A stretch of 64,000 nucleotides of DNA. Origin: Nostocoides sp. Soil756 (GTDB lineage Bacteria > Actinomycetota > Actinomycetes > Actinomycetales > Dermatophilaceae). The translations under genes were made by a program, and so were the position numbers. Below, piece by piece: positions 31,436 through 47,475 of the stretch (within the stretch, counting starts at the first letter, position 1; each line of letters starts with the position of its first letter). A model generated the notes under the pieces. It made no database searches. It had not been told where the DNA came from and worked only from the letters and a program-made list of their open reading frames with translations. The stretch is taken from positions 309,677 to 373,676 of the forward strand of contig NZ_LMSE01000004.1 of the NCBI RefSeq assembly GCF_001428065.1, given 5' to 3'.

Positions 31436-31440
31436 CCTGA

Positions 31441-31505
31441 CGCCGGGCCCGCCCGGCGTGCTGGTCGAAGGGCCCGCATCCCCCACGGGGGGTGCGGGCC
31501 CTTCG
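31441..31505. terminator. tandem hairpins between convergent tuf and GNAT genes
   Basis: A first stem CGCCGGG/CCCGGCG occupies 31441-31458. A second, long one pairs 31466-31484 with 31487-31505, 19 bp with one G-T wobble. Placed between convergent genes, the pair can serve as a bidirectional terminator. Confidence 0.85.
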
Positions 31506-31511
31506 CCGTGC

Positions 31512-32078
31512 TCAGGGGGTGTGCGCCGCGTGCCACTCCCGGGCGGTCAGCTCGGCCAGCCAGTCGCCCTCGTCGGCGCTGGGCAGCCACGGGTCCGCGC
31601 CGCGGTGCACCACCCCCGTGGGCCGCATCCCGGCCCGGCGCATCACCCCGCGGCTGGCGTGGTTGGCGACCATCGTCTCGGCCACGACGCGCTCCAGCCC
31701 GGCCGTGGTGAAGCCGTGCTCGAGGAGGGCCGCCGCACCCTCGCTGGCCAGGCCGCGACCCCACGCCCGGGGGTGCAGCCGCCAGCCGATCTCGGCCAGG
31801 CCCGGGCCCTGGGGGCTCAGCAGCCACCACCCGACGAAGCGGCCCCGCTCGAGGCCGGCCCAGTAGCCGAGCCCCATGGCGTCGGCGGTCGGGTCGAGCC
31901 GCGAGAGCATCCGCTCGCGGACCTCGTCGGGGGTGCGCGGGCGGTCGAGGAAGCGCATCACCTCGGGGTCGGCGTCCAGGGCCTCGAGCTCGGGCAGGTC
32001 GTCCCAGGTGAGGGGGCGCAGCACCAGGCGGTCGGTGATGAGGACCGGGCGCCCGCGCGGGGCGCGCCGCGGGCTCAC
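31512..32078 (-). CDS. GNAT family N-acetyltransferase (RimJ/RimL-like)
   Basis: A 188-residue acetyltransferase of the RimJ/RimL branch. It has the N-terminal ITDRLVLRPLTWDDLPEL, the core IGWRLHPRAWGRGLASEG acetyl-CoA loop, and VVAETMVANHASRGVMRRAGM. Such enzymes modify protein N-termini or small molecules; the substrate here is unknown. The GTG start overlaps the LysR gene stop by 4 bp, so it is the second gene of a two-gene operon. Confidence 0.85.
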   Translation of the reverse strand: MSPRRAPRGRPVLITDRLVLRPLTWDDLPELEALDADPEVMRFLDRPRTPDEVRERMLSRLDPTADAMGLGYWAGLERGRFVGWWLLSPQGPGLAEIGWRLHPRAWGRGLASEGAAALLEHGFTTAGLERVVAETMVANHASRGVMRRAGMRPTGVVHRGADPWLPSADEGDWLAELTAREWHAAHTP

Positions 32079-45747: not shown

Positions 45748-46307
45748 TGCGTCTGATCATCCTCGGCCCTCCCGGTGCCGGTAAGGGCACCCAGGCCGCC
45801 CGGATCGCCGAGCACCACGGCATCCCCGCCATCTCCACCGGCGACATCTTCCGGGCCAACATCAAGAACGAGACCGAGCTCGGGACCCAGGTCAAGGCGA
45901 TCCTCGCCTCGGGCGGCTACGTCTCCGACGAGATCACCAACGCCATCGTCGAGGACCGGTTGGCCCAGGACGACTGCGCGCCCGGGTTCCTGCTCGACGG
46001 CTACCCGCGCACCCTGGCCCAGGTCGACGCCCTCGACGCGATGCTGGCCGGCCACGGTCAGGCGCTCGACCGGGTGCTCGAGCTGACCGTGGACGACGAG
46101 GTCGTGGTCGGCCGGCTGCTGAAGCGCGCCGAGCTCGAGGGCCGCGACGACGACACCGAGGACGTCATCCGCGAACGGATGGGCATCTACCACCGCGAGA
46201 CCCGCCCGCTGGCGCAGACCTACCGCGAGCGCGGCCTGCTGGTCGACGTCGACGGCGACGGCGCGGTCGACGAGGTCACCGCCCGCATCCTGGCAGCGCT
46301 GGGCTGA
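45747..46307 (+). CDS. adk: adenylate kinase, short type
   Basis: A 186-residue enzyme interconverting ATP + AMP and 2 ADP. It has the P-loop GPPGAGKGT (residues 7-15), [10 protein letters not shown], and the [12 protein letters not shown]-site motif. The LID domain of long forms is replaced by a short loop ([17 protein letters not shown]), the usual actinobacterial form, and there are no zinc cysteines. The ATG overlaps the secY stop. Map normally follows directly, but here a DUF559 gene intervenes. Confidence 0.97.
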
Positions 46308-46352
46308 GCGGGCGTGCCGGCGTCGCGCCGGCCGCCGCCCCCTTCCAGGTCG

Positions 46353-46410
46353 CACGCAGAAGTTCGGCCGGCACGCAGCAGTTGCCGCGTGCCGGCCGAA
46401 CTTCTGCGTG
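46353..46410. repeat. 24-bp perfect palindromic repeat A (downstream of DUF559 gene)
   Basis: Bases 46353-46376 and 46387-46410 form a perfect 24-bp inverted repeat with loop AGCAGTTGCC. It lies between the convergent adk and DUF559 genes and may terminate both. It is clearly related to repeat B at 47420-47475: the same ACGCAG...TTCGG...CACGC frame with a similar loop. The differing arm bases are matched on both arms. Confidence 0.9.
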
Positions 46411-46418
46411 CCGCCCGG

Positions 46419-47354
46419 TCAGGGCCCCGCGAGGGCCCGCCGCCGGAGGGTCGCCCGGGTCCGCGCCGCGCGGATGCGGCGCGCGACCTCGGCCGGGTCG
46501 GCGAGGTCGGCCCACACCAGGCGGACCACCTCGTACCCGAGGTCGACGATGGCCGACTCCCGGAGCTTCTCGGCGGCCAGCGCCGCGCGCCCTTCGGCCC
46601 CCTCGTACTTGACGAGGCCGTCGAACTCCACGACGACCAGCCCGTCGACGAGGAAGTCGACCCGGCCCACCAGGGCCCGGGGCGTGCGCAGCGGCACCTG
46701 TGACGTGACGTCGAAGCCCAGGTCCCCGAGCAGGATCCGCGTCCGCGTCTCGCCCACGGACTCACTCGCGGGATCGGTCAGGGCGATGGCGCGGGCGGCC
46801 GCATCCCGGTGGTGTTCCGGAAGCAGCGGCACCGCCGAACGCAGCTCCTCCACCGTGCAGCGACGGTCGTGGAGGGCGTCGTCCATGGAGCAGACCGCCG
46901 GGACCACGCCGGAGCCGCCGGCGACCTGCACCAGGGCCGTGGGCAGCAGCACCACGTTGACCCCCGATGCTCGGTCGGCCACGATCCCGCGGCCCGGGTG
47001 GGTCCGAAGACCGGAGCGCACCCGGGGCGCCTTCACCTGCCCGACGACGTCGACAGTTGTCAGGTCGACGCCGTAGGTGTCGACCCGGTGCAGGAGCACG
47101 GCCGCATGGTGGCTGGCGGCGTCGAGGCCCGGGCGGGTGCGCAGGATCGCCCGCGCGCGCTGCCGGTAGCGCTCGTCGGGATCGGCGGCGTCGTAGGCCG
47201 ACCGCAGGACGTACGCCCCCCGCCGCACCCGCACGAGCTGCCCACTGCGCACCCAGCCGTCGAGCTGGACCGCGCTAACCCCGACCCGGGCCGCATCCGT
47301 GGACGACACCACCCCGTCCTGGGCGGTGAGCAGCGTCGTGAGTCGATCGTCCAT
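46419..47354 (-). CDS. DUF559/AbiEi-like winged-helix plus endonuclease-fold protein
   Basis: A 311-residue protein. Residues ~1-50 resemble the N-terminal winged-helix of AbiEi-type antitoxins (LTAQDGVVSSTDAARVGVS, then LVRVRRGAYVL). Residues ~195-300 carry a DUF559/Vsr-like PD-(D/E)xK core: E202 (GETRTR), D233 (VDFLVDG), and E243-F-D245-G...K249-Y. ATG at 47354 is preferred; a longer frame would start inside the palindrome. It is on the minus strand, inserted between adk and map, and flanked by two related palindromes. Activity and target are unknown; it could be a nuclease or an antitoxin-like regulator. No partner toxin is adjacent. Confidence 0.8.
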   Translation of the reverse strand: MDDRLTTLLTAQDGVVSSTDAARVGVSAVQLDGWVRSGQLVRVRRGAYVLRSAYDAADPDERYRQRARAILRTRPGLDAASHHAAVLLHRVDTYGVDLTTVDVVGQVKAPRVRSGLRTHPGRGIVADRASGVNVVLLPTALVQVAGGSGVVPAVCSMDDALHDRRCTVEELRSAVPLLPEHHRDAAARAIALTDPASESVGETRTRILLGDLGFDVTSQVPLRTPRALVGRVDFLVDGLVVVEFDGLVKYEGAEGRAALAAEKLRESAIVDLGYEVVRLVWADLADPAEVARRIRAARTRATLRRRALAGP

Positions 47355-47419
47355 GGGTCGACGCTGCCGGGTCGGCCGGCGCTGCGCCAGCGCTGGTCGG
47401 ACGCCTGTGGACAACGGGC

Positions 47420-47475
47420 ACGCAGGACTTCGGATGCCACGCAGCAACTGCGGCGTGGCATCCGAAGTCCTGCGT
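47420..47475. repeat. 23-bp perfect palindromic repeat B (upstream of DUF559 gene)
   Basis: Bases 47420-47442 and 47453-47475 form a perfect 23-bp inverted repeat with loop AGCAACTGCG. It lies 66 bp before the DUF559 start and 67 bp before map. Compared with repeat A, six arm positions differ and each is compensated on the other arm, so the palindrome rather than the exact sequence appears conserved. Confidence 0.9.

Follow-up and report, generated by a model that had tools for sequence, protein, structure and literature searches.

Many bacteria carry REP-like palindromes, and for some classes no mobiliser is known. In REP/REPIN-RAYT systems, dispersed palindromes accompany a gene that is itself flanked by its own type of repeat (PMC3116915, PMC3733652); the CGTC class of REPs is apparently without a dedicated transposase, in an account that leaves Actinobacteria unmentioned (PMC3733652). 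The GIY-YIG single-strand nuclease Ssn of Neisseria is likewise associated with its own dispersed repeats, termed NTS. AbiEi-family antitoxins bind tandem 23-bp inverted repeats in their own promoter and thereby autoregulate (PMC7319586). Here we describe a locus that touches on each of these systems, found in a 64,000-nucleotide stretch of DNA (hereafter the window) from an actinobacterial genome of 3.47 Mb (G000).

A gene with a nuclease fold between two copies of one palindrome

The gene order at the site is adk (stop at 46307), a minus-strand gene at 46419-47354 and map (start at ~47543), with the following features:

46352..46411, no strand: palindrome 1, in the intergenic region between adk and the gene's stop codon, with a core 56-bp element at 46354-46409
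46419..47354, minus strand: gene for a 311-residue protein, reading frame intact, ATG at 47354 and stop at 46419
Protein residues about 1-50: AbiEi_4 winged helix (Pfam AbiEi_4, 1.3e-9)
Protein residues about 78-192: AbiEi-like middle domain
Protein residues about 195-285: PD-(D/E)xK nuclease domain, with E202, D233, E243, D245 and K249 invariant
47404..47415, no strand: DnaA-box-like CCTGTGGACAAC (as reverse complement, GTTGTCCACAGG), in the spacer that separates palindrome 2 from the start codon
47420..47475, no strand: palindrome 2 (56 bp), on the start-codon side, between the gene and map

The two palindromes are copies of the same 56-bp element, ACGCAG....CTGCGT, with ACGCAG boxes in one orientation at +0 and +19 and in the other at +31 and +50. 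Palindrome 1 has perfect 25-bp arms and a 10-nt loop (CM R1 score 83.7), palindrome 2 perfect 23-bp arms and a loop of the same length (CM R1 score 80.9), and as DNA folds they reach -38.4 kcal/mol (z -11.5) and -34.4 kcal/mol (z -12.1), respectively, both far beyond shuffled sequences. Compared as direct repeats they are only 78% identical over 58 nt, from which we infer that homogenisation has not been recent at the window locus. Across the 14 copies of the window-element family the boxes are near-invariant, pairing is poor at columns 15-18, and 8 base pairs have changed on both sides, with a covariation score that none of 500 shuffles attained. An Rfam search of the palindromes returned only sub-threshold miRNA hairpin look-alikes, on which ground an RNA-element identity was rejected, and a search for terminators at the palindromes found no terminator-like site. 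Elsewhere in the window, a further long imperfect inverted repeat lies at 31440-31531, with 45-nt arms that are 73% complementary.

The encoded protein has a restriction-endonuclease-like fold with a conserved acidic/lysine set, its cutting activity being inferred. Residues E202, Q219, D233, E243, F244, D245, G246, K249, Y250, E262, R265, E266 and R278 are invariant in an alignment of 72 homologues. In Pfam the window protein matches AbiEi_4 alone, with no direct DUF559 match, and the 72 homologues match AbiEi_4 (52), REase_MTES_1575 (11) and DUF559 (8); PADLOC AbiEi models match 72/72. A sequence search against solved structures gave nothing useful for the window protein. Its AlphaFold model (pLDDT 96.5) retrieved, in Foldseek, the AbiEi antitoxin 6y8q at E 7e-6 and the catalytic domain of the Vsr-like homing endonuclease I-Bth0305I (3r3p) at a target-normalised TM of 0.69 and a weak E of 0.03. 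Mean alignment entropy is 1.71 in the nuclease core, 2.65 in the recognition helix of the winged helix-turn-helix (wHTH) and 2.19 overall, the recognition-helix value not exceeding that of some other segments (2.66 for residues 51-77). G000 holds seven paralogues, the others 36-50% identical to the window protein.

A preliminary description, made from sequence alone, had proposed a winged-helix N terminus and a PD-(D/E)xK C terminus, and this held (Pfam AbiEi_4, the fold matches and five residues invariant in 72 homologues); of its DUF559/AbiEi-like label, AbiEi_4 held for the window protein, DUF559 and REase_MTES_1575 matching some relatives only. Its 23-bp palindrome at 47420-47475 held exactly, and the 24-bp palindrome that it placed at 46353-46410 held in part, the arms being slightly longer (25 bp, 46352-46411). 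Its claim that both arms change together was borne out by the 8 double-changed pairs and 0/500 shuffles.

Matched flanks and their co-divergence with the gene

The association of palindrome and nuclease gene is general beyond the window, extending to many soil actinobacteria. Among 101 non-redundant homologues from many actinobacterial genera, matching repeats were present on both flanks in 80 (79%), as against 5/2843 mismatched flank pairs (0.2%), and fake genes placed in the same loci as a control had matched flanks in 1/150 cases. Detectable matched flanks are absent from the other 21/101, several of which show partial matches. In the family the repeats stand at a median distance of 113 bp from the start on the upstream side and 9 bp from the stop on the downstream side, and a hairpin score >=12 is reached by 49% of repeat copies vs 0.5% of control windows. 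Direct box repeats are spaced by 19 bp in 56/154 repeat copies (0 in the control) and by 20 bp in 33/154 (5 in the control), often in the order ++-- or --++; about 40% of repeat copies have no box repeat at 18-21 bp. The better match between flanks is direct in 19 units and inverted in 24.

From gene to gene the repeat sequence varies, yet the copies on either side of any one gene match; the flanks evolve in concert and diverge together with the gene. Protein similarity and repeat similarity are correlated (Mantel r 0.40, 0/2000 permutations), repeats being recognisably similar mostly at a relative protein score above about 0.6. At 22/22 syntenic loci within the genus, the flanks within one unit are closer to each other than the same flank is between species (p=2e-7). 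At the syntenic loci L158 in G001 (protein 62% identical) and L181 in G003 (protein 38% identical), a switch to an unrelated repeat has taken place on both flanks. At the locus L147/L153, where the proteins are 95% identical, both palindromes are present in G000 and G002 is without either, remnants being left; since matched repeats are present at this site in G006, loss in G002 is the likelier direction. As a separate observation, L146:7372-7423 differs from L152 (G000/G002) by a clean indel of ~50 bp with short CGCGTACCCC repeats, which is not palindromic.

A DnaA-box-like motif upstream of the gene

Most units carry TCCACAGG or its complement between the upstream repeat and the start codon. 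On either strand, TCCACAG is found within 300 bp upstream in 72/101 homologues, where its distance to the start is often 57-59 or 49 bp, and within 300 bp downstream in 1/101. Of 77 spacers, 33 contain TTNTCCACA, which none of 760 control windows does. In M. tuberculosis and S. coelicolor, the DnaA box reads TTGTCCACA (PMC4285127). A link of the upstream motif to DnaA is possible and is offered as a suggestion only. We also observed that the TTGTCCACAGG motif is conserved at a near-fixed distance before the start in most family members. Independently, a cluster of TTGTCCACAGG-like boxes lies at L285:3949-4199 (G008:C1, about 804000) beside a gene with a CrgA-like C terminus, and may represent clustered DnaA boxes close to the replication origin.

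Dispersed copies in genomes that hold the gene

Where a genome holds the gene, its repeats form a family scattered through intergenic regions. The genome-wide copy counts rest on limited searches and samples, and dispersal was counted in few genomes. A covariance model of the window element found 12 copies in G000, where the gene is intact, 3 copies in G002, where the 97% identical orthologue is frameshifted, weak relics in G005-G008, and no copy in the other six genomes of the genus. In G034, a sharply bounded palindrome of 70 bp is present in 37 copies, two of which flank the G034 gene; 25/37 copies are not spanned by a coding-like ORF, compared with 11/74 nearby positions, making the copies mostly intergenic, and no excess of 2-9 bp direct repeats, as target-site duplication would leave, was found around the 37 copies. 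A third family, TATCGGGTSACCCGATA, was found in 5/5 genus genomes with its cognate unit (39, 24, 42, 33 and 12 sites) and in 0/7 without it (Fisher p 0.0013); the 12 genomes share phylogeny, so that the 5/7 split does not represent 12 independent events. Dispersed copies of this family are built as hairpin1-hairpin2-hairpin1, whereas at the borders of the gene the arrangement is hairpin1-hairpin2, hairpin 1 lying on the outside. In 400 kb sampled from G029, two more copies of that genome's own repeat turned up. Apart from the two flanks and a relative at C5:121287, a pattern search for the L007 palindrome returned mostly chance matches. Comparison of solo copies gave no clean empty/filled pair with both flanks conserved, G002 providing one one-sided comparison.

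Several further palindromes were observed in passing. In L240 (G034:C1, about 149000) the 70-bp element forms a local cluster with extra half-copies. A dispersed palindrome AACGTGTGTGAAGA..TCTTCACACACGTT occurs in at least three places in G008 (L281:1474, L285:19787 and L283:15181). At L192, L193 and L194, 3' of an M20-type peptidase gene and before a tRNA, relatives carry other palindromes, GTCGAGGTGA..TCACCTCGAC, at the site that holds a solo window-type palindrome in G000, as if intergenic sites gathered different families in each species.

The adk-map site and inheritance

Inheritance of the genes is mostly vertical, at fixed sites. In G001 the site is empty, with 11 bp between adk and map and no palindrome. 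G006, G011, G007, G008 and G005 (L136, L138, L141-L143) carry there a non-orthologous AbiEi_4/REase gene on the plus strand, flanked by its own palindromes of the GTCGA....ACATGCCGT or ACACGCCGT types, and G003 retains a decayed remnant; next to adk in G005 lies a relic resembling the window palindrome. Because five relatives carry a second, non-orthologous unit there, we regard adk-map as a recurrent home for such units. Phage, plasmid and viral collections yielded no relatives, and phage or plasmid cargo was rejected on the absence of such matches.

Comparison of adk-map among relatives (empty in G001, other units in five, a remnant in G003) upheld in part the claim of the preliminary description that adk-map adjacency is usual in relatives: the two genes stand 11 bp apart in G001, but a different unit occupies the interval in five relatives. 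The covariance-model search of the genome and its relatives found dispersed copies in G000 and G002 and relics in G005-G008. Two outcomes would have counted against a palindrome-gene unit, namely no enrichment of palindromes near such genes and a failure of gene and hairpins to be inherited together; the former did not occur (79% matched flanks vs 0.2% in controls), and neither did the latter (one family in exactly the 5/12 genus genomes with the cognate unit).

Proposed mechanism

These data lead us to view the window as holding one REP-like unit, palindrome-gene-palindrome, with a proposed read-cut-copy mechanism that we favour by a modest margin, binding, cutting and mobilisation all being inferred. 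The AbiEi-type winged helix would read boxes at 19-20 bp spacing, two per arm, in many repeats, and the PD-(D/E)xK domain would nick or cut the palindrome when extruded or single-stranded during replication. The binding of 23-bp inverted repeats by AbiEi proteins (PMC7319586) is in keeping with box reading, and the pairing of invariant nuclease residues with a wHTH whose recognition helix varies lends the proposal some support. At the cut, repair or template switching would copy the element to new sites and keep copies alike; as a PD-(D/E)xK nuclease alone has no strand-joining activity, spread would need host repair. Like RAYT genes and REPINs in the model put forward for them, the gene would descend vertically at a single site and the small palindromes would spread. 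The DnaA-box-like site may couple expression to replication. The palindrome-nuclease unit in REP/RAYT style that the preliminary description proposed is supported, recognition or cutting of the hairpins remaining inferred.

A bolder reading, which we rate at slightly less than even odds, is that Actinomycetota harbour a class of self-spreading palindromes independent of the HUH/Y1 RAYTs: a fusion of AbiEi-type reader and PD-(D/E)xK nuclease would recognise the 19-20 bp boxes, drive copying and homogenisation, and switch specificity together with both flanks. If true, it could represent a second, unrelated origin of REP-like biology. The open-access literature that we searched contained no paper linking DUF559 or AbiEi to dispersed palindromes, which is weak evidence. 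An actinobacterial palindrome class gains here a candidate partner that is a quite different kind of enzyme; such pairs occur in many species, each with its own specificity. Recognition, cutting and mobilisation are directly testable, because gene-repeat pairs are simple to predict from their sequence. Should the protein read and cut its palindrome, the family would offer a large natural set of nucleases with targets written beside their genes, and proteins whose sole annotation is AbiEi antitoxin or DUF559 would gain a possible function.

Alternative explanations

The most serious rival, which we consider unlikely, is an operator model where the winged helix binds the palindromes for autoregulation, as in AbiEi and Rv2827c, the nuclease has some other target, and copies dispersed in the genome serve as secondary operators or are merely passive repeats. 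AbiEi-family autoregulation through tandem 23-bp inverted repeats in the promoter (PMC7319586) and a palindrome upstream of the start (family median 113 bp) speak for it; however, an equal copy downstream, at a median of 9 bp past the stop, is unneeded for autoregulation, tens of copies lie elsewhere in genomes, and the near-perfect hairpin arms exceed the needs of a dimeric operator. A remnant transposon, with the palindromes as terminal inverted repeats of a cut-and-paste element, the REase protein as transposase and the dispersed copies as MITEs, seems very unlikely. In its favour, the flanks in the L163/L172 family are inverted (hairpin 1 outermost) and the dispersed HP1-HP2-HP1 copies are what internal deletion would give, and 24 units are better matched inverted vs 19 direct; yet the G034 copies showed no target-site duplications, close duplicates of the gene are missing from the genomes examined (identity among paralogues is about 35-50%), units occupy syntenic sites, and in many units the flanks are direct, not inverted.

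An equally improbable account, resting on analogy with the GIY-YIG nuclease Ssn of Neisseria, is genome policing or control of uptake, where the nuclease would cut incoming single strands carrying, or lacking, the palindromes and the repeats would mark self. The gene is flanked by its own repeats, these are dispersed, the phages and plasmids searched held no relatives, and PADLOC AbiEi models match all homologues, but each genome has few copies (12 to about 40) and the window locus has no competence or defence neighbours. That ordinary terminators or RNA-stabilising hairpins flank the gene by chance can be all but discounted. Palindrome 1 does lie between the convergent adk and the gene, and REP-like sequences can serve as 3' RNA hairpins; against this, no terminator-like site was detected, palindrome 2 is upstream of the start, and gene-specific flank matching, exact co-occurrence with the gene and a 19-20 bp box period are not properties of terminators.

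Comparison with known systems

The window protein resembles AbiEi antitoxins (type IV AbiE; S. agalactiae AbiEi and M. tuberculosis Rv2827c) in its N-terminal winged helix and middle domain, in sequence and in fold (6y8q), and differs from them by its extra nuclease domain; the window-family repeats, moreover, are found not only at either side of the gene but throughout the genome. A type IV toxin-antitoxin AbiE was rejected as an identity, the neighbours being adk and map with no AbiEii (DUF1814) nucleotidyltransferase toxin adjacent, and the antitoxin-type alternative raised in the preliminary description is disfavoured on the same ground. With DUF559/REase_MTES_1575 and I-Bth0305I the family shares the fold of the C-terminal domain and the E-D-E-D-K catalytic set. 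The DUF559 and MTES_1575 Pfam models, however, reach only 8 and 11 of 72 members, and unlike for the homing endonuclease, to which the Foldseek match is weak (E 0.03), there is no evidence that the window-family gene is inserted inside a cognate gene target. Unlike an insertion sequence with its MITEs, the whole unit is not repeated in near-identical form at different sites of G000. Neisseria Ssn is alike in pairing a nuclease gene with its own dispersed repeats, but its nuclease fold is unrelated to that of the window protein.

The closest parallel remains REP/REPIN-RAYT, from which the differences are clear. The HUH/Y1 tyrosine transposase is absent, the window family encoding an AbiEi wHTH and a PD-(D/E)xK nuclease instead, and because the enzyme is unrelated the family is not a RAYT; no GTAG or CGTC tag marks the palindrome foot in the copies seen, the consensus ending in ACGCAG..CTGCGT and GCATGA..TCATGC; and the window-type family has 19-20 bp boxes, a lower copy number and Actinomycetota hosts. 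What the two have in common (PMC3116915, PMC3733652) is the absence of target-site duplication, dispersed palindromes, a gene flanked by its own repeat type, vertical inheritance, and a gene-repeat pair that is distinct in each genome.
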